Shown here one piece after another: positions 25,131-40,482 of a DNA stretch of 64,000 nt; position 1 is the stretch's first letter, and the number at the start of each line of letters is the position of its first letter. Origin of the DNA: Rhodospirillaceae bacterium (GTDB lineage Bacteria; Pseudomonadota; Alphaproteobacteria; Rhodospirillales; Rhodospirillaceae). Made by a program: the position numbers and the translations under genes. Location of the stretch: contig CANJSF010000009.1 in NCBI GenBank assembly GCA_947476925.1, positions 62,001-126,000 of the forward strand, given 5' to 3'. Under the pieces are notes generated by a model. The model saw nothing but the letters and a program-made list of their open reading frames with translations, was not told the DNA's origin and did not search any database.

Positions 25131-25940
25131 TCAGCGGTTTGCGGATTTGTCGAGTGAGCGTGCGAGCCGCATGCCAACAAAGGTGCCGCGGCTACCAGCT
25201 CCCATCTTGTGGCGATGGTCAGACCGCAAGTTCATGGCAGAATTCACCCACGAACCGCCTCGATTATTGCGCTGGCACGATCCCAACTTTGTAACGGCGC
25301 TGCCGTCGATTGGCGCGCCGTCGTAGTTGGCCTGATAACAATCTTCGACCCACTCCCAAACATTACCATGCATGTCATGGACCCCAAATTTGTTTGGCTC
25401 TTTTGTTCCGACAGAATGAATGTGCCCGCCTGAATTTGAGTTGTACCAGGCATATCGCCCGAGCTCGTTAACGTCGTCGCCAAATGAAAAAAGAGCACTA
25501 CTCCCGGCGCGCGCTGCATATTCCCATTCAGCTTCGGTCGGCAGCCGATATGTCTTGCCGGTCTTGGCTGAGAGTCGTTTCGCATATTCCTTTGCTTCGT
25601 TCCACGACACCGTTTCGACTGGCAGATTTTTATCTCCGTCGATGTAATCGCTTGGATTTTCGCCCATGAGGGCTTGCCATTGGCCTTGCGTGACTTCGTA
25701 TTTCCCTAAGGCAAACGCTGGAACCGAAACACTGCGCTGCGGAATCTCGTCGGGCTCGGGCTTGTATTTCAGCGCCGGATCCGCCTTGCCGCCCATCACA
25801 AAACTGCCGCCGGGGATTATCACCATCTCGGGGCAGTCGGCGCAGTCTTTGAAAACGCGACCGGGTACTTCCGCCAAAGCCCCGTTGTTCAGAGCAAACA
25901 TTTGCGCTATCGCGATTGCCGCAGCCAAAGTGGTTTTCAT
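25131..25940 (-). CDS. Secreted SUMF1/formylglycine-generating-enzyme-fold protein
   Basis: A 269-residue protein with a signal peptide ending ALA and a full FGE-sulfatase domain: MVIIPGGSFVMG, YEVTQGQWQALMG, LPTEAEWEYAARAG, HDMHGNVWEWVED and RGGSWVN. The C-terminal region that in true formylglycine-generating enzymes holds the catalytic Cys pair (CxRxxAR type) reads LRSDHRHKMGAG, with no Cys, so sulfatase activation is unlikely. Start is at 25940 or 25949. A divergent paralogue begins 98 bp away. Confidence 0.85.
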   Translation of the reverse strand: MKTTLAAAIAIAQMFALNNGALAEVPGRVFKDCADCPEMVIIPGGSFVMGGKADPALKYKPEPDEIPQRSVSVPAFALGKYEVTQGQWQALMGENPSDYIDGDKNLPVETVSWNEAKEYAKRLSAKTGKTYRLPTEAEWEYAARAGSSALFSFGDDVNELGRYAWYNSNSGGHIHSVGTKEPNKFGVHDMHGNVWEWVEDCYQANYDGAPIDGSAVTKLGSCQRNNRGGSWVNSAMNLRSDHRHKMGAGSRGTFVGMRLARSLDKSANR

Positions 25941-26038
25941 GCCCGACATTCTCCGAGGCGATTCCATCAGGCAGTAGCCGATGGCACTAAGGCTGAGTAT
26001 GGTGATCATAAGTTCAAGGTCAATGCCGACGGAGTTCC

Positions 26039-26767
26039 ATGAACATGAAAAAAGCTTGGGTCCCTGTTTTACTGCTTCTGGCATTCAGTGCCCCTGCGCG
26101 TACGCAACCTGATCATGGTACCTTCAAGGATTGTCCAGACTGCCCGGAAATGGTCGTCATTCCGCAATCACCCCAAGGCGCGGCGAAAATAAAGTCATTT
26201 GCGCTTGGTAAGTTTGAAATCACCCAAGCAGAGTGGCTGGCGGTCATGGGCGATCGGCCAAGCGAGTTTGTCGGCGACGATTTGCCAGTTGAAACGGTGT
26301 CGTGGAATGACGTTCAGGGTTTTATTCGCAAGCTGAATGCGAAAACAGGCAAGCAATACCGACTACCGACCGAAGCGGAGTGGGAATACGCAGCACGTGG
26401 CGGAAGTGTCTCAACATACTCATTTGGCGATAATGTCGCCGAGTTGGCAGAGTATGCGTGGTTCCTCGACAATGCTGGCGATACTACTCACCCCGTTGGA
26501 CAGAAGCGACCGAATGCCTTTGGACTCTATGACGTGCACGGGAATGTTTGGGAGTGGGTCCAAGATTGCGCCACCGCCGAATCAAATAGTGCTGCCCCAA
26601 AAGAAGACGATACGGTTGCAAAGTATATCCGCGATTGTCATCGCAGCTACCGCGGCGGATCAATGGCTAATAAATCATCGAGTCTTAAGCTGACTTTCAG
26701 CCAGTCCAGTGGCGTCGGGGACCGCTATTTTGCAATGGGCTTTCGCATTGCACGAACGCTGCCATAG
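26039..26767 (+). CDS. Secreted SUMF1-fold protein, shortened paralogue
   Basis: A 242-residue protein with a signal peptide and the same fold as its divergent neighbour. Shared blocks include FKDCPDCPEMVVIP, FEITQAEWLAVMG, YRLPTEAEWEYAARGG and YDVHGNVWEWVQD. It lacks the GGSFxMG turn near the start and the catalytic Cys residues at the end. GGAG lies five bases before the ATG at 26039. The pair arose by duplication and inversion. Confidence 0.8.
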   Translation: MNMKKAWVPVLLLLAFSAPARTQPDHGTFKDCPDCPEMVVIPQSPQGAAKIKSFALGKFEITQAEWLAVMGDRPSEFVGDDLPVETVSWNDVQGFIRKLNAKTGKQYRLPTEAEWEYAARGGSVSTYSFGDNVAELAEYAWFLDNAGDTTHPVGQKRPNAFGLYDVHGNVWEWVQDCATAESNSAAPKEDDTVAKYIRDCHRSYRGGSMANKSSSLKLTFSQSSGVGDRYFAMGFRIARTLP

Positions 26768-26806: not shown

Positions 26807-28372
26807 CTAATGGGAACGGCGAATGTAGCTTTTTACTTTCGCGGCATCGCCTTGACCTTTGTAGGTCAGGGTGTCGGGGTAGGGCGCAAAGGGCCGCTCT
26901 GATTTAACCGTGCCGGGATCAATAGGAAAGCGAACCTGGTTCGGCAGTTTCGGTTCTTCCACGACCTCGTAGCCGGTAATGATATCCATCGGCACGCCAT
27001 CCTCTACCCAACGTTCCATCATCGAAAGCGAGTCAAAATGTCGGCCTTCCGGAATGCCTGATGTGCAATGCATATCACCGGGAATCATATACATGCGGAA
27101 GAATTCTCGGGCAGCTTCAACACTTCCGACCTCTTTGGCGAGTTTGTTGTAAAACTGAATCGGGTATGAACCCGGCATCGCCGATTCATTCCACCCATGC
27201 ATGGCCAATAGTTTGCCCCCCCGCGCGCGAAATGCGGAGAAATTTGTACTGTCGGCGCTGACCAGGTTTTCTGTTTCGTTGAATGTCGAAGGTGGGGCGT
27301 TGAGGTCGAAGTCTGTAAGTTGAAACGTCGGTCCCTTCGACGTTGGGTATAGAAAGTAGCGCATAATCTCGACGCTAAACTTCGCGTAGTTCGGATTGGC
27401 GCCGAAAAACGCATTCGGCCAACGTAATTCAGACCCCAACGACATGCCCGGATAAATATGAGTGCCGTTGTCTTGAGTCGGGCCTGCATACATCTTTCGT
27501 GCTACGGCGACCTTGGCGGGAGTCAGGCATGCTTCTGTTTTGGATGTGCCGCAGGATAAACTTTCTGGGTCGAAAGAGCATTTGTTGGGATTGGCAATGA
27601 TCCCGTCAGATAATCCGTCCTGGGCATCGCATTTCTTGATCACGGCGCCATGGAGCAACTCGACATCAACGTTTGAAAGAATTTGATTGCCATCGGCGTC
27701 GACATTGGCGCGAACGCTCCAGGCCATAAGGTAGTTAAGTTTGGTGAAGTCAAAGACGATGCCGCCATTGGCAATAATTCCATCAAAGTCATTTGGATAG
27801 CGCTGGGCTTCGACCACCGCTTGCCGCCCGCCCGTGCCGCAGCCGCGGAAGTAATTTGACTTGGGTTTTGTGCCGTAGAAGCGCGCGATGAGTTCTTTCG
27901 CAGCCAGAGCGGTGACATGTGTAGCGCGGTGGCCGAAGTCGATTTTGCTTTGGGTGTTGTTGACTGCCCAAATACCTGATTGGCTGGTGACGGCCTTGTG
28001 ACCCATATCGGTGGTGCCAACTGCGTAGCCGCGCGCTAACGCATCGTTGGTGGCATCTGATGGGATAAAGCCGCACATCCCGCGGCAACCCTGTTGCAAA
28101 TAACGTCCGTTCCAATTGTTTGTTGGTAAACGTAGTTCAAACCCAACCTGCGGCGCGACAAAACCAGAGATGGAGCAGTGGGCGGGTGAGGTTTGGCTTT
28201 CCGAGTTGACCCGTGCTGTCGCGACGGCCGCAGGCGTCGAGTTTTCGACTATGATGGTCTGGCCACTGATGGACTTACACACGTCTAAGTCGGCCGCCAT
28301 CGCAACATTGGCTATCGCAGTTAATGCGGCGCTGACCACAGAACGCAGAATGCACTTTCGATTGACCGTCAT
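26807..28372 (-). CDS. Tannase/feruloyl esterase family protein with altered active site
   Basis: A 521-residue exported protein (signal peptide ending AMA). The family layout is intact: an N-terminal Cys-containing part, NNWNGRYLQQGCRGMCG, the nucleophile-elbow region, YPNDFDGIIANG and the C-terminal DMHC. But the elbow, normally GCSxGGRQ, reads GCGTGGRQ: the catalytic Ser is Gly (codon 27836-27838, residue 179). The usual Asp after HGW is replaced (HGWNES). His-Cys is kept. Either the protein is not a classical esterase or the base is wrong. The start at 28372 overlaps the stop of the oxygenase gene (ATGA). Confidence 0.8.
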   Translation of the reverse strand: MTVNRKCILRSVVSAALTAIANVAMAADLDVCKSISGQTIIVENSTPAAVATARVNSESQTSPAHCSISGFVAPQVGFELRLPTNNWNGRYLQQGCRGMCGFIPSDATNDALARGYAVGTTDMGHKAVTSQSGIWAVNNTQSKIDFGHRATHVTALAAKELIARFYGTKPKSNYFRGCGTGGRQAVVEAQRYPNDFDGIIANGGIVFDFTKLNYLMAWSVRANVDADGNQILSNVDVELLHGAVIKKCDAQDGLSDGIIANPNKCSFDPESLSCGTSKTEACLTPAKVAVARKMYAGPTQDNGTHIYPGMSLGSELRWPNAFFGANPNYAKFSVEIMRYFLYPTSKGPTFQLTDFDLNAPPSTFNETENLVSADSTNFSAFRARGGKLLAMHGWNESAMPGSYPIQFYNKLAKEVGSVEAAREFFRMYMIPGDMHCTSGIPEGRHFDSLSMMERWVEDGVPMDIITGYEVVEEPKLPNQVRFPIDPGTVKSERPFAPYPDTLTYKGQGDAAKVKSYIRRSH

Positions 28373-29307
28373 ATCAGTTTGATTTCCGACAATCGTTGCT
28401 GCAAATAACCGTTGGCCGTGATCGGCGTGGGATATCGGTTCGGGTGCTGTGCCGAAATACACGACGTCAGAGTCTCGATTAAAAAGTCCGGCGCAAAATG
28501 CTGAAAAAACGGCATCGAGTAGCGCGGGTGTGATGCGCGTTCTGGTTTAGGGTTGACGACCCGGTGCGTGGTGGACGGCAGCACATGATTGGTGAGGCGT
28601 TGCAGCATATCGCCGATGTTAACCACAACGCAATTGGGCGGAGGATCGATGTCGAGCCAGTGGCCCTCGCGATCCAGCAATTGCAGACCTGCTTCCTCCG
28701 CACCCAACAACAACGTGATTAGGTTGATATCTTCATGCGCACCAGCTCGCACGCCTTGCGCTTGGGCCGACACCGGTGGGTAATGCAGCAATCGTAAAAT
28801 GCTATTTCCATCTTTTACGGCGTTGTCGAAGTAGTCAGTTCTCAAATTCAAATATCGCGCGAGGGCGGAAAGTAACCGCAAGCCTAAAGTGTCCATGGCG
28901 TCATATAGCCGATAGGTTGCGACGTCGAAATCGTGAACCTCGGCGACGTGCAAATTAGAAGGCATAATTGGTGTAAAGCGATGTCCAGGCGTCAAGTTGC
29001 GGCCCACATGCCAGAACTCTTTTAGGTCGGCACGGTCGGCTCCCTTGGCGGTTTCGATTCCGAAGGGCGTGTATCCGCGCTGCCCGCCGCCACCAGGCAC
29101 CAGGTACTTTCTCTTTGTTGTATCAGGGAGCGCAAAAAATTGCCGCGTGAGATCAAACGCGTTGTCGATGATGTTGGTCGCAACACCGTGCTCGGCAATC
29201 ACAGCAAAGCCATACCGCTCGAAGCAAGCGCCCAAGGCGCGCGCAAACTTCTCGGGGTTTTGCGCGCTGTCAGCAATAGAAAGTGGCGTGATCGGTGGTT
29301 GGGGCAT
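28369..29307 (-). CDS. 2-oxoglutarate/Fe(II)-dependent oxygenase, isopenicillin N synthase-like
   Basis: A 312-residue oxygenase. The iron triad is visible as HED in GAHEDINLITLL and the distal His in PSTTHRVVNP; the Arg of RYSMPFF binds 2-oxoglutarate. GYTPFGIETAKG and the N-terminal domain match the IPNS/DIOX family, which hydroxylates or desaturates small molecules. It starts 2 bp after the reductase gene and overlaps the tannase-family gene, so three genes form one operon, probably for an aromatic or other plant-derived compound (inferred). Confidence 0.87.
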   Translation of the reverse strand: MPQPPITPLSIADSAQNPEKFARALGACFERYGFAVIAEHGVATNIIDNAFDLTRQFFALPDTTKRKYLVPGGGGQRGYTPFGIETAKGADRADLKEFWHVGRNLTPGHRFTPIMPSNLHVAEVHDFDVATYRLYDAMDTLGLRLLSALARYLNLRTDYFDNAVKDGNSILRLLHYPPVSAQAQGVRAGAHEDINLITLLLGAEEAGLQLLDREGHWLDIDPPPNCVVVNIGDMLQRLTNHVLPSTTHRVVNPKPERASHPRYSMPFFQHFAPDFLIETLTSCISAQHPNRYPTPITANGYLQQRLSEIKLI

Positions 29308-32974: not shown

Positions 32975-33448
32975 ATGTCCGAACAAACCAGAACACTCGC
33001 CGATTTGAAAACTGCCGTTGTTGCGACTGCAGCAATTGTGCGTGAGCCCAAGCGTGACAAGCAAGGCCGCAGCTATGCCACCGGAAAGCGTAAAAATGCT
33101 ATTGCCCGCGTTTGGATTAAGCCCGGCAAAGGCAAAATCACGGTCAATACCCGCGAAGTGGAAAGCTACTTCTCACGGCCGGTGTTGCGCATGTTGATTA
33201 CGCAACCATTCGTGGCGTGCAACCGCCTGGGCGAATTCGATGTTGTTTGCAAAGTTATCGGCGGTGGCTTGTCGGGCCAAGCCGGTGCGGTGCGCCATGG
33301 CATTTCCAAAGCGCTGACGTATTTCGAGCCGGGCTTGCGTCCGGTGTTGAAGTCGGGCGGCTTCCTCACGCGTGACTCGCGCGTTGTTGAACGTAAAAAG
33401 TTCGGCAAAAAGAAAGCCCGCCGCAGCTTCCAGTTCTCGAAGCGCTAG
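32975..33448 (+). CDS. rpsI: 30S ribosomal protein S9
   Basis: A 157-residue protein with an alphaproteobacterial N-terminal extension of about 30 residues and the S9 core: [35 protein letters not shown] and the C-terminal [12 protein letters not shown], whose final Lys-Arg contacts P-site tRNA. A terminator follows about 23 bp downstream. Confidence 0.97.
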
Positions 33449-33470
33449 GCTTTATCTTACTTTCTGCTCA

Positions 33471-33500
33471 AGGGCCGGTCGAAAGATCGGCCCTTTTGCT
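33471..33500 (+). terminator. Rho-independent terminator after rpsI
   Basis: The stem AGGGCCGGTC / GATCGGCCCT (one G-T pair) with a GAAA loop is followed by TTTGCTTT. It ends the rplM-rpsI transcript. Confidence 0.85.
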
Positions 33501-33553
33501 TTGCGGGGGAACCCTGCCTGTGGTTTGCTTGCTCATGGCGGGTAAGGTGGGGC

Positions 33554-35488
33554 ATGGCCAAACGTAAAAGCAACTCCAAGGTCGAACGGCGCGGGTTCTT
33601 TAAAAGCATTGCCACAGTCGGTGCGGCAAGCGCGGTAGGGGCGGCGGGTCTGGCTTCGGCCGCTGATACGCCGCGTCAAACAGGCGTGAGCGCTCCGACC
33701 CACAATCAAATCGCCGCTGAGACTGCGCCACCCAAAGGCGTGGCGCCTTCAGCGCAGCAATGCGGTGCGGATTTCATGGTCGATGTCATGAGTTCTCTGG
33801 GCATTGACTACGTGGCGTCCAATCCCGGCTCGAGTTTTCGCGCGTTACAAGAGTCGGTGATTAACTATGCCAACAACACGGCGCCAGAATTTCTGACGTG
33901 CCTGCATGAGGAATCGTCGGTTGCCATGGCGCATGGTTACGCGAAAGTCTCTGGCAAGCCCATGGCGGTTTTCGCGCATGGAACTGTTGGCCTTCAGCAT
34001 GCTTCGATGGCGCTTTACAATGCGTGGTGCGACCGTGTGCCGGTAATTGCCGTGTTGGGTAACATCACCGACAGTGCAAAACGCAGGCCAGGTGTTGAGT
34101 GGCTGCACACCGCCCAAGACCCCGCTGTCATCGTTCGCGACTTTGTGAAATGGGATGATCAGCCTGGTTCGTTGCAACACTTTGCCGAGTCCATGGTGCG
34201 CGCCAAAAAAGTGGCGCTGACACCACCAATGGCTCCGGTTGTGATTGTTGCTGATGCTGAATTGCAAGAAGCCCCAATCGAGAATCTTGCCGCGTTGAAC
34301 ATTCCAAAATGTGTTCCTGCTGCGCCCCCGCAGGGTGATAGCGGCGCGGTGAAAGAAGCTGCGCGACTTTTGGCATCTGCGAAAAACCCGGTGGTTGTTG
34401 CCGATCGGCTCGCGCGCACACCCGCAGGCATGGGCTTATTGGTCACATTGGCTGAGGCACTCAACGCGCCGGTCATTGACTTGGCGAGCCGAATGAATTT
34501 CCCCAATTCGCACTATTTGTCGCAGAGTGGTCGTGCGAAAGCCTTGATTGCCGAAGCCGATGTGATTCTGGCACTTGAAGTTAATGACGTGTGGGGCCTG
34601 ATTAACGAATACATCGACAACGAAGAGCGTACATCATTTCCGAAAATTCAAAGTGATACGAAAGTTATAAGCATCACTTCGGCTGACCTTTACTTGAAAT
34701 CGAACTACCAAGACTTTCAGCGTTTTGCTGCGGCGGATGTTCCTATTGCAGGTGATGCTGAAGCCACCCTTCCAGCACTTATCGAAGCGTTGGAGCGTTC
34801 TTTGCCGACTTCAATCAGCATTGCAGCGCGTGGCGACGCTATGCACAAAGCCTATGCAGCTTCCCGTGCACGTGCGCTGAAAGATGCGACCTATGCTTGG
34901 GATGCCAGCCCCATCAGCACGGCTCGGCTGGCGGCTGAATTAGGCGAGGCGATTAAAGCCGAGGATTGGGCGCTCGTCTCACCCGACAATTTTATCAGCG
35001 GTTGGGCGCGTCGGCTTTGGACGTTCGATAAACCGTACCAATACATTGGCACATCTGGTGGGCAGGGCGTTGGCTACGGCTTGGCAGCGGCTGTCGGCGC
35101 CGCGCTTGCCCATAAAGCCGCTGGGCGGCTGGCGGTCAACATCCAAACCGATGGCGACCTTATGTATGCGCCTGGCAGCATTTGGACGGCCGTGCACCAC
35201 AAAATCCCGCTGCTATCAGTTATGCACAATAATCGCGCCTACCATCAAGAAACGATGCATATTCAGCGGATGGCCGCTCGTCGTAGCCGGGGTATTGACC
35301 GCGCACACATTGGCACAGCGATCGACAGCCCGTTTATCGATTACGCAATGCTGGCAAAATCTATGGGCATGTGGGCCGAAGGGCCGATCAGCGATCCTAA
35401 AGACCTTGGCCCGGCATTGCGACGCGCACTTGCTGTTGTGAAACGCGGTGAGCCCGTGCTGCTCGATGTTGTTACGCAGCCGCGTTAA
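33554..35488 (+). CDS. Tat-exported thiamine-diphosphate enzyme, acetolactate-synthase-like
   Basis: A 644-residue protein. The first 40 residues carry a Tat signal, with ERRGFFK followed by a long Ala/Gly/Val segment ending ASAAD. The rest is a complete ThDP enzyme of the acetolactate synthase/benzoylformate decarboxylase fold. The cofactor-activating Glu is in LHEESSVAMAHGYAK, and the ThDP/Mg motif runs from TDGDLMYAPG to SVMHNN. This fold is normally cytoplasmic. The next gene, 10 bp on, encodes an exported cytochrome c, suggesting that the decarboxylation intermediate is oxidised in the periplasm. Substrate unknown. Confidence 0.85.
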   Translation: MAKRKSNSKVERRGFFKSIATVGAASAVGAAGLASAADTPRQTGVSAPTHNQIAAETAPPKGVAPSAQQCGADFMVDVMSSLGIDYVASNPGSSFRALQESVINYANNTAPEFLTCLHEESSVAMAHGYAKVSGKPMAVFAHGTVGLQHASMALYNAWCDRVPVIAVLGNITDSAKRRPGVEWLHTAQDPAVIVRDFVKWDDQPGSLQHFAESMVRAKKVALTPPMAPVVIVADAELQEAPIENLAALNIPKCVPAAPPQGDSGAVKEAARLLASAKNPVVVADRLARTPAGMGLLVTLAEALNAPVIDLASRMNFPNSHYLSQSGRAKALIAEADVILALEVNDVWGLINEYIDNEERTSFPKIQSDTKVISITSADLYLKSNYQDFQRFAAADVPIAGDAEATLPALIEALERSLPTSISIAARGDAMHKAYAASRARALKDATYAWDASPISTARLAAELGEAIKAEDWALVSPDNFISGWARRLWTFDKPYQYIGTSGGQGVGYGLAAAVGAALAHKAAGRLAVNIQTDGDLMYAPGSIWTAVHHKIPLLSVMHNNRAYHQETMHIQRMAARRSRGIDRAHIGTAIDSPFIDYAMLAKSMGMWAEGPISDPKDLGPALRRALAVVKRGEPVLLDVVTQPR

Positions 35489-35498
35489 GGAGGGGCCG

Positions 35499-35840
35499 AT
35501 GAAAAGACTTCTCATTTTGGTACCGCTCATTTTTTCAGTGTCTGCGAGCGCCTTCGCAGCGTCGCCGACCGAGCAAGGGCGCGCGCTCTTTTTAAAGATT
35601 GGCTGTTCTCAATGCCATGGCACCGTGGGCCAAGGAGGAGCTGCGGGCCCGCGTTTGGCACCCGAGCCCATGGAGTGGGAAGCATTTGCGCAATTTGTTC
35701 ACAATAGTTCAGATGCCATGCCGGCCTATCGTGAGAAAATTTTGCCCGATCTGCAATTGAAGCAGATTCACTCCTACTTGCAGTCGATTCCGCCGCCGTT
35801 ACCCGTTGATCAGATACCGCTCCTACGCGGAAAGAAATAA
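35499..35840 (+). CDS. Single-haem cytochrome c
   Basis: A 113-residue protein with a signal peptide ending AFA and one haem-binding motif CSQCH (about residues 33-37). A Met in SSDAMPAYREKILPD is the likely sixth ligand, giving a class I cytochrome. The ATG has AAGGAGGGG seven bases upstream and lies 10 bp after the ThDP enzyme, so the two are almost certainly co-translated and probably exchange electrons. Confidence 0.9.
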   Translation: MKRLLILVPLIFSVSASAFAASPTEQGRALFLKIGCSQCHGTVGQGGAAGPRLAPEPMEWEAFAQFVHNSSDAMPAYREKILPDLQLKQIHSYLQSIPPPLPVDQIPLLRGKK

Positions 35841-35917
35841 GACCTATTCGATCAACTCTTTTCACAGATTGGTCACGTAGATACGATTTTGAATTCGCTT
35901 TTCTGCTGGAGTTTCGT

Positions 35918-36556
35918 TTGAGTGTCGATCACCAAAAATCGCCATCCGAAATGATCGGTGAGATCGCAACGTGGTGGCCGGGGCACTACACAACCCGGCG
36001 CCAAGTTGCCGCCGATAGCGCTTGGGTGCGACCCGGCGCTAAACCCGCACCAGAACTGACCATCGTGGCCAGGCGCATCATGGCCGTGAAGCTAGACGCC
36101 CCTCAACTGGGCGATCATGTCATTTATTTCGAAGAGTTTCGCGACACCGAGCCCGAAATTGCGGCGCGCCAGCGGGTCACGGTGCTGGTGTGGGACCAGC
36201 CCACCGCCTGCGTGCGCTCGCTGCAATATTTTTTCAAGTCCGGTCCGACCTACGACCGCAAGTCGTTACCCGCAGGCTCCGTGGCGAAGATGACCAAAGA
36301 CGATTTCATGCATCAAGCCGCTTGCGACGTGTATTTCAAGTGGGAGGCTGAGCATCAACGCTACAAAGGCGGCATGCAACCACGGTCATGCGAGTACGAA
36401 CATCCCGGAGATGGCTTGGTCTATGCTGAATTCGATATGATCTTGTGGTCGGATGCGCTGTGGTATCGCGACCGCAGCCGGCGTGTGGCCAATCACACTA
36501 TTCGCGGCGAAATCGACGGGTTCAGTTGGCTGAGGTTCGATAAGATTGAAGTTTAG
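35918..36556 (+). CDS. CpcT/CpeT-like protein (chromophore lyase family)
   Basis: A 212-residue protein aligning along its length with cyanobacterial CpcT/CpeT: HYTTRRQVAAD near the N-terminus, VIYFEEFRDTEPEIAARQRV (the EQ..YRxR region), CDVYFKWEAEHQRYKGGM, RSCEY, and the end RDRSRRVANHTIRGEIDGFSW, matching the DRGxD...WGSxxGxF pattern. CpcT attaches phycocyanobilin to phycocyanin. No phycobiliprotein is visible here, so a different ligand is likely. The start is TTG with TGGAG seven bases upstream. Confidence 0.75.
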   Translation: MSVDHQKSPSEMIGEIATWWPGHYTTRRQVAADSAWVRPGAKPAPELTIVARRIMAVKLDAPQLGDHVIYFEEFRDTEPEIAARQRVTVLVWDQPTACVRSLQYFFKSGPTYDRKSLPAGSVAKMTKDDFMHQAACDVYFKWEAEHQRYKGGMQPRSCEYEHPGDGLVYAEFDMILWSDALWYRDRSRRVANHTIRGEIDGFSWLRFDKIEV

Positions 36557-36577: not shown

Positions 36578-39562
36578 ATGCTGCGCATGTTTTGTCTCGT
36601 TTTTTTCGCGATTGTGGCCGCTTTCGGCCCTGCTCATGCGCAGCCCCTGACGCTATCGCAAGGCACCAACATCGCTGCGGCGGTTTCGCCCGACGGAAAA
36701 CAAATCGTGTTTGATTTGCAAGTTACGCTGTGGGTGATGCCTGCGGCGGGCGGTGAGGCCAAGGCCATCACGCCGCCAATGGCCGATGCGCGTCAGCCGC
36801 AGTGGTCGCCCGACGGCGGCAAAATTGTATTCCAATCGTTCATGGACGGCGGCTGGCACATTTATACGGTCGGGCCGGACGGCGTAAATTTCGCGCAAAT
36901 CAGCAGCGGCGGTTTTGATGAGCGCGAGCCTGTGTTCTCGCCCGACGGCGCTTGGATTGCGTTTTCATCCGACCGCAGTGGCTCATACGATATATGGGTG
37001 ATGGCCGCTGATGGGTCAGAGCCGCGGGTTCTCACAACATCACTTGGCAACGATCACAGCCCGACATGGTCGCCTGAAGGCAAACGCATCGCGTTTGTGT
37101 CTGACCGCGAAGGCGGAGCAGGTTTGTATTCGATTACTTTCGAAGGAGTCAGCGAACGTTTGATGGCGCCACTGGAAGGCGCAATCGCCGGGCCGTCATG
37201 GAGCAAGGATGGCCGCCAAATCGCATTTGTAGAAACGACGCGCGATGGCAGTCAACTAAAACTGATGGACGCCTCCAGCAATGTCATTTCAACATTGAGC
37301 GCCAAGAACGAAGATGTGTTTCCGTTCCGCGCCGGGTGGATGGGCAACGAAGTTTTTTATACCGCAGATGCGGCGATTAAGCGCCTTTCGACCAGCAAGC
37401 CAAAAGCCAAGCCGACAGAGATTTCATTCTCCGCCATCGTGCCGATTTCGCGGCCTGCGTACACGCGCAAGACATTCGATTTTGCCTCGACGGCCCAACG
37501 CCAAGTGAAGGGCGTGCGTGGTCCGCAAGTCTCGCCCGACGGCCGCCGCGTCGTATTCTCGGCTTTGGGTGACATCTGGCTGACGGATGCTACTAAATCC
37601 AAAACCAAGCCCGAGCGCATGACCAACGACGCCTTTTTAGATTTTGATCCGGCGTGGTCGCGGGACGGCAAATTTATCGTTTATGTTTCGGATCGCAGCG
37701 GCAAGACGGAACTATGGCTGCGCGATTTGAAAGCCAATCAAGATCGTCAACTGACCAATCTTGATGCCGAAGTTCAACGCCCCGTGTTTTCGCCCGACGG
37801 CTCGCGGGTTGCCTTCTTCAAAGTGCAGGGCCTAGCTGGGCTTGGCGGCGGTGCCTTGCATGTGATCGATGTCATCACCGGTGAAATCAAACAGGTGCGT
37901 GCCAGCATTTGGTCGCCGAGTCAGGTGAGTTGGTCGCCGGACGGCAAGCACATCGTGTTGTCGGCACTGTCGGCGGCTTCGTCACGCTTTCGCGAAGGCC
38001 TCAGTCAGTTTCTGGTCGTCGCTGTGGATGATGAACCCAAAGCCGACCGCAATGTCACGCCACACCCTGATCATTCGCTGGCAATGCGCGGTGATGATGG
38101 CCCCGTGTGGTCGCCCGATGGTAAGGCGCTAGCTTACATATTTGACGGCCGGCTATGGACGGTACCCGTCACACCAGACGGCACAATCAACGGCTCTCCC
38201 AATCGCATCACCGATGAATTGAGCGATGCTCCCAGCTGGAGTGGTGACTCCAAATCGCTAGTGTATGTGGCAACCGACCGGCTGATGCGCATTGGCGTGG
38301 ATGGGAAGGTCAAAGATATCCAGCCTAATTTCACCTGGGTGCCCGCGATCCCGAAAGATCGCTACGTGCTGCGTACTGCCAAATTTTTCGACGGCGTTAA
38401 GAACGCCTATGCCGAAAACATAGATGTCCTCATCGAAGGCAATCGCATCACGGCCATTTCGTCACGCAAGGAGTGGCCCGCAGATGTGCGTATCGTTGAT
38501 GTCGGCGGCAAGGCGGTCATCCCGGGCCTCATCGAATCTCATACGCACCAAACATCGGTCTTTGGCGAGCGCTTAGGGCGGCTGTGGTTGGCGATGGGTG
38601 TCACCTCGGTGCGTGAGCCTGGGGCCGATCCGTATGATGCAATTGAACGCCGCGAGGCGTGGTCATCGGGCCAACGCTTAGGGCCGCGCGAATTTTTTGC
38701 CGGCGGCCTGACTGATGGCACGCGCGTGTTCTACGGCTTTGCAAATAGCGTGACAACGCCGGAACATTTAGATTTGGAGATGTCGCGCGCCAAGCGGCTT
38801 GATTACGACATGATCAAAACCTACGTGCGAATGCCCGACGAACGGCAGAAAACTATCGTCGCCAAGGCGCACGAAATCGGCATCCCTGTTTCCTCCCACG
38901 AAATTTATCCCGCCGCCAGCTATGGCACCGACGCGGTTGAGCATTTGCGTGGCACCAGCAGACGCGGCTATTCGCCCAAACAAACCGAGATGGGTTTTTC
39001 TTATAACGATGTCGTTGATCTACTGGCACGCACCGGCATGACTGTTACGCCGACGATGGGGTTGTCGGGTGGATTTACTCGCGCCGTGCTGCGTGATGCA
39101 ACCTTGTTTCAACATCCAGCCTATGTCGCGATTTATCGAAGTGCAGAACGTGCACAAACGGCAATTTTTTCCGAGCGCTCGCGGCCCACTGCGTCGTCGC
39201 TTGATTTCACAGTTGCGGCCATGCAAAAGGCCATCAAAAACATCGTTGATCGTGGTGGGCGTATTACGGCAGGAACCGACTCACCCTTTGTGCCCTATGG
39301 TCTCAGCTTCCAAATTGAGCTGGAGTTATACGAGGAGGGGGGGCTGACGCCGTTTCAGGTTTTACAGTCAGCGACGTCCTGGCCTGCCGAGCGCTTGGGC
39401 TTGAGTCCGCATTTAGGCACGCTCGAGGTCGGCAAGCTTGCGGACATCGCCATCATCGATGGCGACCCCCTGGCGCACATCAAAGACATTCGCAATGTGA
39501 ATGCGGTGGTCACCAATGGCCGCTACATCACACGCGATCAGTTGCTCGCTGTGCCGAAATAG
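36578..39562 (+). CDS. Secreted TolB-propeller/amidohydrolase fusion
   Basis: A 994-residue protein with a signal peptide ending AHAQ. Residues about 25-590 form TolB/PD40 beta-propeller repeats, each with a (F/W)SPDGxxIxF(S/V)SDR-like core. Residues about 600-990 are an amidohydrolase: metal site GLIESHTHQ, HEIYPAASYG with its His, and the late Asp in TAGTDSPFVPYG, then an ADIAIIDGDPL end. These fusions are annotated as imidazolonepropionase-like amidohydrolases or peptidases; substrates are mostly unknown. Confidence 0.9.
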   Translation: MLRMFCLVFFAIVAAFGPAHAQPLTLSQGTNIAAAVSPDGKQIVFDLQVTLWVMPAAGGEAKAITPPMADARQPQWSPDGGKIVFQSFMDGGWHIYTVGPDGVNFAQISSGGFDEREPVFSPDGAWIAFSSDRSGSYDIWVMAADGSEPRVLTTSLGNDHSPTWSPEGKRIAFVSDREGGAGLYSITFEGVSERLMAPLEGAIAGPSWSKDGRQIAFVETTRDGSQLKLMDASSNVISTLSAKNEDVFPFRAGWMGNEVFYTADAAIKRLSTSKPKAKPTEISFSAIVPISRPAYTRKTFDFASTAQRQVKGVRGPQVSPDGRRVVFSALGDIWLTDATKSKTKPERMTNDAFLDFDPAWSRDGKFIVYVSDRSGKTELWLRDLKANQDRQLTNLDAEVQRPVFSPDGSRVAFFKVQGLAGLGGGALHVIDVITGEIKQVRASIWSPSQVSWSPDGKHIVLSALSAASSRFREGLSQFLVVAVDDEPKADRNVTPHPDHSLAMRGDDGPVWSPDGKALAYIFDGRLWTVPVTPDGTINGSPNRITDELSDAPSWSGDSKSLVYVATDRLMRIGVDGKVKDIQPNFTWVPAIPKDRYVLRTAKFFDGVKNAYAENIDVLIEGNRITAISSRKEWPADVRIVDVGGKAVIPGLIESHTHQTSVFGERLGRLWLAMGVTSVREPGADPYDAIERREAWSSGQRLGPREFFAGGLTDGTRVFYGFANSVTTPEHLDLEMSRAKRLDYDMIKTYVRMPDERQKTIVAKAHEIGIPVSSHEIYPAASYGTDAVEHLRGTSRRGYSPKQTEMGFSYNDVVDLLARTGMTVTPTMGLSGGFTRAVLRDATLFQHPAYVAIYRSAERAQTAIFSERSRPTASSLDFTVAAMQKAIKNIVDRGGRITAGTDSPFVPYGLSFQIELELYEEGGLTPFQVLQSATSWPAERLGLSPHLGTLEVGKLADIAIIDGDPLAHIKDIRNVNAVVTNGRYITRDQLLAVPK

Positions 39563-39564
39563 AC

Positions 39565-40482
39565 TTACCCTGCCTTGGCAAACTTGCTCATATCAACTTT
39601 GAGCAACTCCGGGTGGTCTGCCTCGGCGCGGTCAAAGTACTCTTTGGGCAATTGATGCACGCCATCAAGCTTGCGCCCGCTCCAAATTGCAAACATATGG
39701 CCCTTGATGTCACCCATCTCCAGCCATTTGGGGAAGGGGTACACGTAGCCCCCGCTGGTGCCCATCGGGAGACGCTTGATCTTTTGATTGTCAAAAAGCG
39801 CTTTGGGCGTCCAGTTATGTGATGTCTCGATGAACGGCGTAAACCAACCATCGGGCGGTACGCGAATTTCTTCGCACTTCACCAAGCCATCTTCGATGCG
39901 AAACAGCGAATAGCGCGGCGAGAATTCTGGCGTCTTTCGGTCCAACGGGCGCTTGCCCTCGGGCCCATACAGCATGCCGGGGTCCTGGGTCAGGATCGTT
40001 GGCTCAACTTTTATTTTGCGGCCCGTGATCGGGTTGGTCATGGCGTCGATGAACGCGCCAGTATTCAGGTCGCGCGGGTAAGACGCGTTGTGGCCATGGG
40101 CCATGTAAATGTTCTCGCCTATTTTTTTATGATGCGAGAATTCAATGCCCTCATAACGCACCAAGGGTTGGACTTTGAGGCCATCGGCCACAATGAACAT
40201 CGTGAAATAATACCAAAGCAGTACATCGGCCTCGTCGGACAGTTCGCGGTAAAGGCGCATCTCTGCGTTAAGGATGGCCACATTGTCCGTGAAGCTCATT
40301 TGTCGCGATTCGAGGCGGCCTTTTGGGACAGAAAAGCTGTCGCCCAGTGGTGGGGTAGCCGCCAACGCTGGCGCAGCTCCCAACGCGGCCACCGGTATGG
40401 CGGCACCTGCCATAGCCTGCCGTCGGGTAACGATGGGTGTTTCACTGTCTTGGCTAAAGGCGTGTTTCATAATGTCGAGCAT
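39565..40482 (-). CDS. DUF1838 family protein, exported (second copy)
   Basis: A 305-residue protein with a Tat-like signal (TRRQAMAGAAIP and an Ala-rich stretch ending PALA). The mature region has NPITGRKI and Trp/Tyr-rich segments, matching the DUF1838 protein at 15763-16632, though the two are well diverged. AGGAG sits seven bases before the ATG. It converges tail to tail with the amidohydrolase gene, only 2 bp apart, with no terminator between them. Function unknown. Confidence 0.7.
   Translation of the reverse strand: MLDIMKHAFSQDSETPIVTRRQAMAGAAIPVAALGAAPALAATPPLGDSFSVPKGRLESRQMSFTDNVAILNAEMRLYRELSDEADVLLWYYFTMFIVADGLKVQPLVRYEGIEFSHHKKIGENIYMAHGHNASYPRDLNTGAFIDAMTNPITGRKIKVEPTILTQDPGMLYGPEGKRPLDRKTPEFSPRYSLFRIEDGLVKCEEIRVPPDGWFTPFIETSHNWTPKALFDNQKIKRLPMGTSGGYVYPFPKWLEMGDIKGHMFAIWSGRKLDGVHQLPKEYFDRAEADHPELLKVDMSKFAKAG

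Follow-up and report, generated by a model that had tools for sequence, protein, structure and literature searches.

By textbook accounts ThDP enzymes work in the cytoplasm, and those that we know to catalyse oxidations use lipoamide, flavin or iron-sulphur acceptors. In E. coli, the ThDP enzyme PoxB oxidises a 2-oxoacid and feeds the respiratory chain with the electrons; a natural ThDP enzyme that hands electrons directly to haem c is not known to us. Among flavin amine oxidoreductases, as described in one study (PMC12224317), the combination of a Tat signal and an operonic cytochrome c predicted cytochrome-using dehydrogenases, a prediction backed by kinetic data, while enzymes with a Tat signal but no nearby cytochrome are oxidases. 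NicA2/Pnao and CycN, in the same study (PMC12224317), likewise join a Tat enzyme and a Sec cytochrome c in one operon, are predicted to be periplasmic and pass electrons to respiration. The locus described here presents this hallmark of the NicA2/CycN type, a Tat signal and an adjacent exported cytochrome, in a pair built on a ThDP enzyme. The likeness is one of working and not of membership: the NicA2/CycN type comprises FAD amine dehydrogenases, with another fold and another chemistry than the ThDP enzyme.

The pair lies in a window of 64,000 nucleotides (the whole stretch of Rhodospirillaceae DNA that was analysed), and its sequence features give good support to Tat export of the ThDP enzyme and to a dedicated cytochrome partner. 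The features are as follows.

33470–33495, plus strand: terminator-like hairpin 3' of rpsI, with an 11-pair stem (7 G-C) and a T-rich tail; a consensus match only
33554–35488, plus strand: ThDP enzyme gene, 644 aa, bearing a predicted Tat signal (ORF list, Pfam)
33554–33661, plus strand: predicted twin-arginine signal peptide, residues 1–36, with ERRGFFK; cleavage site read by eye
33662–33754, plus strand: linker, residues 37–67, mostly without confident AF2 modelling
33764–34081, plus strand: TPP_enzyme_N domain (Pfam), residues 71–176, holding S93, E119 (catalytic-Glu equivalent) and H142
34349–34780, plus strand: TPP_enzyme_M domain (Pfam), residues 266–409, without the FAD-binding loop of PoxB/IlvI/Gcl
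34997–35470, plus strand: TPP_enzyme_C domain (Pfam), residues 482–639, with the D533 and N560 cofactor-metal motif
35489–35493, plus strand: GGAGG run resembling a ribosome-binding site (from the sequence), 5 nt 5' of the cytochrome start
35499–35840, plus strand: partner cytochrome c gene, 113 aa, Sec-type N-terminus, single haem
35604–35618, plus strand: haem-binding CSQCH, residues 36–40, the sole haem site of the cytochrome ORF
35718–35723, plus strand: M74-P75, probable axial methionine, in 55/55 aligned partners
35796–35837, plus strand: conserved C-terminal tail, residues 100–113, with IPLL; L109 in 55/55 partners

The enzyme begins with MAKRKSNSKVERRGFFKSIATVGAASAVGAAGLASAADT, in which a twin-arginine motif is accompanied by a stretch of weak hydrophobicity and by ASA, which resembles a cleavage site. 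The sequence-only reading of this DNA had claimed a Tat signal on the ThDP enzyme and an exported single-haem cytochrome c 10 bp downstream, and both claims hold at the level of predicted features. The stop codon of the ThDP gene occupies 35486–35488 and the cytochrome ATG is at 35499, so the two genes are separated by 10 nt; the cytochrome has a Sec-type N-terminus and one CSQCH. The hairpin after rpsI suggests that the pair forms its own transcription unit; consensus matching found no sigma-70-type promoter in 33400–36000. TatC, haem-maturation and oxidase genes are present in the same genome, as is a second enzyme and cytochrome pair (a paralogue). Five other ThDP homologues of this genome (L003–L007) have no Tat motif.

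The relatives examined were the best 80 of the search, made up of an exported group of 41 and 39 others. Tat calls were made by motif scan and inspection by eye. The motif was found in all 39 readable N-termini of the exported group, and no signal was accepted in the 35 readable N-termini of the others. Inspection accepted L046 and L102 against the regex label and rejected L052, in which no start codon precedes the RR run; the unreadable N-termini were L032 and L040 in the exported group and L056, L063, L081 and L086 in the other. On the strength of this signal, the enzyme is predicted to be located in the periplasm.

A cytochrome c gene lies downstream on the same strand in 35 of the 40 readable 3' sides of the exported group; three of the remainder have a cytochrome nearby and two have none. 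The other 39 relatives are without such a cytochrome, one of them carrying a different cytochrome-like ORF. The arrangement recurs in a further 18/18 pairs (the window, its own paralogue, 14 family loci and 2 plasmid loci), with a median intergenic gap of 12 nt over 53 pairs (start sites picked by script). Of 73 family genomes, 15 carry both enzyme and cytochrome and none has just one; 20 of the 22 cytochromes in family genomes adjoin an enzyme, and the other two sit at contig ends beside a ThDP C-terminus. Among 794 other script-called ORFs flanking the same loci, 4 resemble a small exported cytochrome c, all four near a pair, which argues that the pairing is not due to chance. Conservation of the pair had been named beforehand as one point on which the proposal could fall, and it proved strong (35/40 relatives; 15 family genomes). 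A Terriglobia sub-clade (L047, L049) has the Tat signal yet no adjacent cytochrome, although both genomes encode further family cytochromes elsewhere, five each at E 1e-15 and eight each at E 1e-6. Carriers comprise Rhodospirillaceae MAGs, Bradyrhizobium, Oxalobacteraceae, Terriglobia and Caballeronia. Named sequenced strains with the pair are Bradyrhizobium spp. and Caballeronia zhejiangensis, on whose plasmid p3 the genes are annotated merely as 'thiamine pyrophosphate-binding protein' and 'c-type cytochrome'.

With the signal region left out of the tree, the Tat rows form a single clade (SH-aLRT 97). Distances between enzymes and between their partner cytochromes are correlated (r=0.80 over 47 pairs), as joint inheritance alone would also predict. 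Trees and alignments left out loci with broken or truncated frames (L032, L040, L063, L081, L086, L091), L054 (contig end) and L056, together with near-identical or duplicate loci, among them L030, L035, L037, L038, L048, L073, L077, L079, L092, L093, L095, L100, L105 and L107.

TPP_enzyme_N, _M and _C all score above their Pfam cut-offs in the 644-aa ORF, giving the three-domain architecture. The cofactor residues E119, D533 and N560 are each present in 50/50 Tat rows of the alignment; we take E119 to be the cofactor-activating Glu and D533...N560 to be the Asp...Asn metal motif. Clade-specific residues of the TPP_enzyme_C domain are H558, Q565, E566, M568 and Q571. The AF2 model of the enzyme has a mean pLDDT of 88.0, with values below 50 at residues 1–46 and 58–66. 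Its predicted fold is nearest to benzoylformate decarboxylase (BFD): the top 42 VIA-align rows are all BFD types, and the best structural match to the model is P. putida BFD (1bfd and variants; Z 37.6, rmsd 2.6 Å, 509 residues, 25% identity). With BFD residue numbers counted from the alignment, S26, E47 and H70 have kept equivalents in S93 (45/50 Tat rows), E119 (50/50) and H142 (49/50), and no His stands at the position aligned with His281, where the alignment is loose. In contrast to what is proposed for the exported enzyme, BFD is cytoplasmic, non-redox and without a cytochrome; it is also FAD-free.

Curated models place the enzyme outside the named families. The BFD model NF005485 gave 147 bits against a cut-off of 493, and the acetolactate synthase model TIGR00118 gave 119 against 538. 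The best family model, NCBIfam NF006203/PRK08327 'thiamine pyrophosphate-requiring protein', reached 249 bits, below its cut-off of 456. The nearest sequence relatives outside the exported group (39–46%) form a cytoplasmic sister clade without Tat signal or partner cytochrome, of which the three scanned gave 287–291 bits with NF006203, also below 456. Searching the PDB by profile with a threshold of E 1e-50, which was too strict, gave no match. The earlier label 'acetolactate-synthase-like' is loose, as TIGR00118 fails, the predicted fold is BFD-like and the FAD site is apparently absent.

The partner cytochrome matches Cytochrome_CBB3/Cytochrom_C above the Pfam cut-off. Residues C36, C39, H40 and G41 are kept in 55/55 aligned partners; the L036 homologue, which has CxxCL and not CxxCH, stands outside this alignment. 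M74 is presumably the axial ligand, the role of this methionine in class I cytochromes. CxxCH, distal Met and helical fold identify a class I cytochrome c (Pfam, alignment, AF2, VIA-align). The AF2 model has a mean pLDDT of 88.4, and of 90 at residues 101–110 and 74 at 111–113 within the tail, which is possibly a docking element. With this model, the best Foldseek match, at E 1.4e-3, fell short of E 0.001. VIA-align matched it to PchC, a subunit of p-cresol methylhydroxylase (1dii/1diq; 72 residues aligned, Z 10.1, 32% identity), and the sequences also match (E 3.4e-4). Both are small cytochromes dedicated to one enzyme; PchC is an acceptor, and its partner is a flavoprotein. The PchC alignments end short of the conserved tail, and bc-complex cytochrome domains score slightly above PchC (Z 11.0–11.2).

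From these sequence features, we consider it likely that the pair is a two-gene respiratory module, a periplasmic ThDP dehydrogenase whose adduct would pass electrons to the dedicated cytochrome, probably without a flavin. The enzyme would take up ThDP and Mg2+ while still in the cytoplasm and be exported in folded form through Tat to the periplasm. There it would bind a small 2-oxoacid or aldehyde and form the usual ThDP carbanion/enamine adduct. The co-encoded cytochrome c would oxidise this adduct in two one-electron steps with release of the free acid, and the reduced cytochrome would deliver its electrons to cytochrome oxidase. As the FAD loop is missing, electrons probably pass directly from thiamine adduct to haem. 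Reduction of the cytochrome by the adduct, a 2-oxoacid or aldehyde as substrate and actual residence in the periplasm are points that we infer. Against this reading stand the Terriglobia sub-clade with no adjacent cytochrome, given that Tat enzymes lacking one nearby were oxidases in PMC12224317, the CxxCL of the L036 partner, the weak Foldseek result for the cytochrome, the lack of a known natural precedent for ThDP-to-haem c transfer and the lack of a conserved third gene that would name a substrate. A more specific proposal is tentative, and we give it slightly less than even odds: that the enzyme is flavin-free, that haem c takes electrons directly from its thiamine enamine/acyl radical, and that it represents, to our knowledge, the first ThDP class built for the outside of the cytoplasmic membrane.

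The enzyme could be a non-redox decarboxylase, lyase or carboligase, with the cytochrome serving another dehydrogenase that oxidises the aldehyde product and the two genes joined by pathway only. The top 42 VIA-align rows are of a type that is non-redox, and S93 and H142 match BFD active-site positions. A di-haem cytochrome lies 3' of the pair in three Acidobacteriota loci (L033, L038, L045), and L038 and L045 carry a gene that clusters with the PQQ-dehydrogenase-like protein of L045 (a Pfam reading made on L045). The cytochrome, however, accompanies the ThDP gene across differing neighbourhoods and in all 15 family carrier genomes, whereas no third partner gene recurred beyond 6 of the 42 Tat loci when 962 script-called ORFs were clustered. 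Since this coarse clustering picked up even the cytochrome in only 19 of these loci, it may have overlooked a third partner that is small or diverged. One cluster, of solute-binding proteins, is shared by 4 Tat loci and 5 further loci. Among 30 chosen neighbours, Pfam found scattered functions, namely gltX, citrate synthase, solute-binding proteins, UbiD, FAD_binding_2, MFS, LysR, NrfD, acetate kinase and one PQQ dehydrogenase, and gave no match for 9; with functions so scattered, the context names no substrate. On this balance we regard the non-redox explanation as unlikely.

Less probable still is a PoxB-like flavin oxidative decarboxylase in which the FAD site is kept or re-made and electrons run from ThDP through FAD to cytochrome c. 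The single-chain oxidative members of the fold, PoxB and POX, use FAD, and FAD-type enzymes are near in fold: AHAS 6wo1 scores Z 35.3, and in the Foldseek top 50 glyoxylate carboligase and AHAS stand among FAD-free enzymes. Against it, the 7-column loop common to PoxB, IlvI and Gcl, which we take to contact FAD, is gapped in 50/50 Tat rows, and the preceding G-x-G run reads DR in the five Tat rows inspected there. Oxalyl-CoA decarboxylase, which is FAD-free, retains 1/7 of these columns. PoxB also differs in working on the cytoplasmic side with FAD and a quinone acceptor; with the loop missing and 20% identity to PoxB, assignment as a PoxB-like pyruvate oxidase was rejected. We give little credence to the cytochrome being a redox or haem sensor, an assembly factor or an oxygen protector of the enzyme: nothing specific speaks for these roles, the invariant tail being a conserved feature and no more, while the His/Met arrangement is the standard class I one of electron carriers. 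In PMC12224317, moreover, neighbouring Tat enzyme and Sec cytochrome pairs are dehydrogenases. Least probable of all is an unused Tat motif and an enzyme that stays in the cytoplasm; the weak hydrophobic stretch could be read that way, though it is typical of Tat signals, and the motif is found throughout the readable exported group and was accepted in none of the readable sisters, coupled to an exported cytochrome.

Among the matches listed from a collection of open-access papers, there is no report of an exported ThDP enzyme with a cytochrome. The pair suggests an undescribed route in which oxidation takes place outside the inner membrane and electrons go directly to respiration. If the proposed dehydrogenase is real, direct transfer from a thiamine radical to haem would be testable with two small soluble proteins. 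ThDP chemistry would have a respiratory outlet beyond lipoamide, FAD and iron-sulphur clusters, and carriers could oxidise 2-oxoacids or aldehydes for respiration in the periplasm, with no need to take them up.

The ThDP enzyme and its partner cytochrome c lie on contig C9, part of a genome of 3.8 Mb, and are arranged as follows.

Upstream, by our own reading: rplM-rpsI
33470-33495: terminator-like hairpin between rplM-rpsI and the enzyme gene
33554-35488, + strand: ThDP enzyme ORF, 644 residues, with three ThDP-enzyme Pfam domains above cut-off
35499-35840, + strand: cytochrome c ORF, 113 residues, exported, with a single CSQCH site

The twin-arginine signal of the enzyme reads ERRGFFK, and the cytochrome ORF begins ten nt past the enzyme stop, with a GGAGG run in between. 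The sequence-only reading had described a Tat-signalled ThDP enzyme followed after 10 nt by an exported single-haem cytochrome c; its coordinates and content are correct on the ORF and Pfam reading. Directly after the pair (35918-36556, + strand) lies a CpeT/CpcT-family protein (PF06206, 52 bits against a cut-off of 21), a family named from cyanobacterial phycobilin lyases. No called ORF of this cluster stands alongside the pair of a close relative (L014). The window holds further genes of note. Behind a PD40 beta-propeller is an amidohydrolase that is probably exported (36578-39562, + strand), and a possible second Tat-type protein was seen by eye at 39565-40482 (- strand; weak DUF1838 match, under cut-off). 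A tannase/feruloyl esterase family protein (26807-28462, - strand) adjoins a 2OG-Fe(II) oxygenase gene. Two divergent formylglycine-generating-enzyme-like (FGE-sulfatase) ORFs, 25131-26084 (- strand) and 26039-26767 (+ strand), have overlapping called 5' ends; their true starts are probably further in.

The enzyme and cytochrome genes form a real unit. The same genome has a second pair, likewise adjacent (57% identity for the ThDP gene, 50% for the cytochrome), flanked by an E/Q-class tRNA synthetase gene and a citrate synthase gene; none of the five other ThDP homologues found in this genome has a Tat motif. Among bacterial and archaeal genomes, 131 relatives of the enzyme turned up; the counts are of the best 80, and these split into two groups. 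In the first (41 loci, L012-L051 and L054; 50-76% identity), 39 of 39 readable N-termini have an RRx[FL] motif with a hydrophobic stretch after it (L046 read by eye), and 35 of 40 readable 3' sides have a same-strand downstream cytochrome whose CxxCH lies no more than 264 nt from the enzyme stop. Among the remaining loci, L027 and L029 have a nearby cytochrome on the opposite strand, L047 and L049 have no adjacent cytochrome, and L036 has a cytochrome homologue directly upstream of the enzyme (L036:1-399, + strand) with CFSCL replacing CxxCH, either a sequencing error or a variant with a lost haem ligand. The second group (39 loci, L052, L053 and L055-L091; 39-46% identity) showed no accepted export signal in 35 readable N-termini and no CxxCHG cytochrome within 3.4 kb of any enzyme gene, an absence less firm than its count because several of these contigs end soon after the gene. 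At L066 the only CxxCHG is in a 23-residue ORF 3443 nt off, and at L061 a different exported ORF with CxxCHN lies 213 nt downstream.

The Tat motif and the adjacent cytochrome are both present in all 18 further pairs (that of the window, its paralogue in the same genome, 14 family pairs, and those of Caballeronia and Novosphingobium; duplicates removed, L102 read by eye), and the median gap across 53 same-strand pairs, with starts chosen by script, is 12 nt. As background, 4 of 794 other flank ORFs of the same loci resemble small exported cytochromes, all four beside such pairs. The survey of gene-pair conservation proposed by the sequence-only reading thus finds the pair conserved.

Of 73 genomes sampled from the family, 15 have the enzyme at E up to 1e-150, and exactly these 15 have the cytochrome family at E up to 1e-15 (Fisher p 7e-16, kinship left uncorrected). 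Twenty of 22 family cytochromes adjoin the enzyme; the other two are at contig ends with a C-terminal piece of the enzyme alongside. When the best few candidates per genome were scored, only the window's own genome had the enzyme among 199 genomes of the order sample (E 1e-180) and among 398 of the phylum sample (E 1e-170), so that the enzyme is rare beyond the family in the samples drawn. Relatives belong, by record title, to Acidobacteriota, Betaproteobacteria and Bradyrhizobium, so the distribution looks patchy, which suggests transfer or loss. Partner protein distances correlate (r 0.80, 47 pairs, 0 of 2000 permutations), as is also expected from joint inheritance. In a tree of the enzyme core (85 rows, signal and linker removed, quick method, with PoxB, IlvI, Gcl and Oxc as outgroup), a branch separates the 50 Tat rows (SH-aLRT 97) from the 31 other rows (96). 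This fits a single gain of export and cytochrome, on a tree whose long outgroup branches were flagged by the tree tool.

The Terriglobia genomes that are the source of L047 and L049 carry several copies of the enzyme gene. Match positions distinguish six ThDP genes in G250 and five in G251 (seven and six match rows, one gene per genome being split into two matches), of which four in each genome have an adjacent cytochrome. Family cytochromes number five in each genome at E <=1e-15 and eight at E 1e-6. The Tat motif is present in nine of the 11 ThDP genes, the other two being cut at the N-terminus. This expansion perhaps serves different substrates.

The AlphaFold2 model of the enzyme has a mean pLDDT of 88.0 and is confident beyond about residue 67. 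Benzoylformate decarboxylase (BFD) types fill the top 42 rows of VIA-align, the best with Z 37.6 and rmsd 2.6 A over 509 residues, followed by HKA synthase (36.1), ancestral acetolactate synthase (35.4), AHAS and oxalyl-CoA decarboxylase (both 35.3). BFD is also nearest by sequence comparison. The exported enzyme is thus built on a BFD-like ThDP fold but falls outside BFD itself by the curated score (147 bits against a cut-off of 493). E119, D533 and N560 are each kept by all 50 Tat rows, while Ser26 and His70 of BFD have their counterparts in S93 (45 of 50) and H142 (49 of 50); the exported protein is therefore probably an active ThDP enzyme. The fold alone leaves the flavin undecided, because the Foldseek top 50, headed by 4-hydroxybenzoylformate decarboxylase, mixes FAD-free and FAD enzymes. 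All 50 Tat rows have a gap where PoxB, IlvI and Gcl share a central-domain loop that is part of their FAD site, and in the five Tat rows printed the preceding G-x-G run is DR, which argues for a flavin-free enzyme. Positions separating Tat from other rows include H558, Q565, E566, M568 and Q571; they adjoin the ThDP-binding loop and may serve substrate or cytochrome.

The cytochrome model has a small, helical, class I-like fold. Foldseek gave nothing at E 0.001 or below, its best hit being at 1.4e-3; VIA-align placed bc-complex cytochrome domains at the top (Z 11.0-11.2), and next the p-cresol methylhydroxylase subunit, first of the stand-alone cytochromes (Z 10.1, 32% identity). CxxCHG, M74-P75 and L109 of the tail are invariant in 55 aligned partners, an alignment that left out the CxxCL homologue of L036. 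Past the last helix the tail, modelled with pLDDT 90 at residues 101-110, is a possible docking element for the enzyme. At L112 (Caballeronia zhejiangensis plasmid p3, 9950-10570) the partner is a longer cytochrome, probably di-haem since it has a second CxxCH; this pair is close to an aromatic dioxygenase cluster.

No substrate can be named from gene context, since neighbours vary between loci in a coarse clustering of ORFs. A di-haem cytochrome behind the pair at L033, L038 and L045, with a PQQ-dehydrogenase-like gene next at the latter two, is a hint that alcohols or aldehydes are oxidised in the periplasm of these bacteria. In Oxalobacteraceae (L042, L044), another ThDP gene, which clusters with that of the exported pair, lies a few kb from it along with a solute-binding protein.

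Tat export of the folded enzyme would fit cofactor loading inside the cell, and the genome encodes TatC, haem-maturation genes and cytochrome oxidase genes. ThDP adducts can be oxidised by one-electron acceptors, among them ferricyanide and the iron-sulphur clusters of pyruvate:ferredoxin oxidoreductase. For flavin amine oxidoreductases, PMC12224317 reports that a Tat signal with an operonic cytochrome predicts cytochrome-using dehydrogenases well, that these are largely specific to their own cytochrome, and that Tat enzymes without a nearby cytochrome react fast with oxygen. By analogy with these enzymes, a 2-oxoacid or aldehyde would form a ThDP adduct that the cytochrome oxidises in single-electron steps, with the acid then released; the L047/L049 sub-clade may differ. 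The exported pair would work like NicA2/CycN but is not a member of that system, and our search of the open-access literature found no description of a system of this kind. The bold reading of the pair is direct electron transfer from thiamine to haem.
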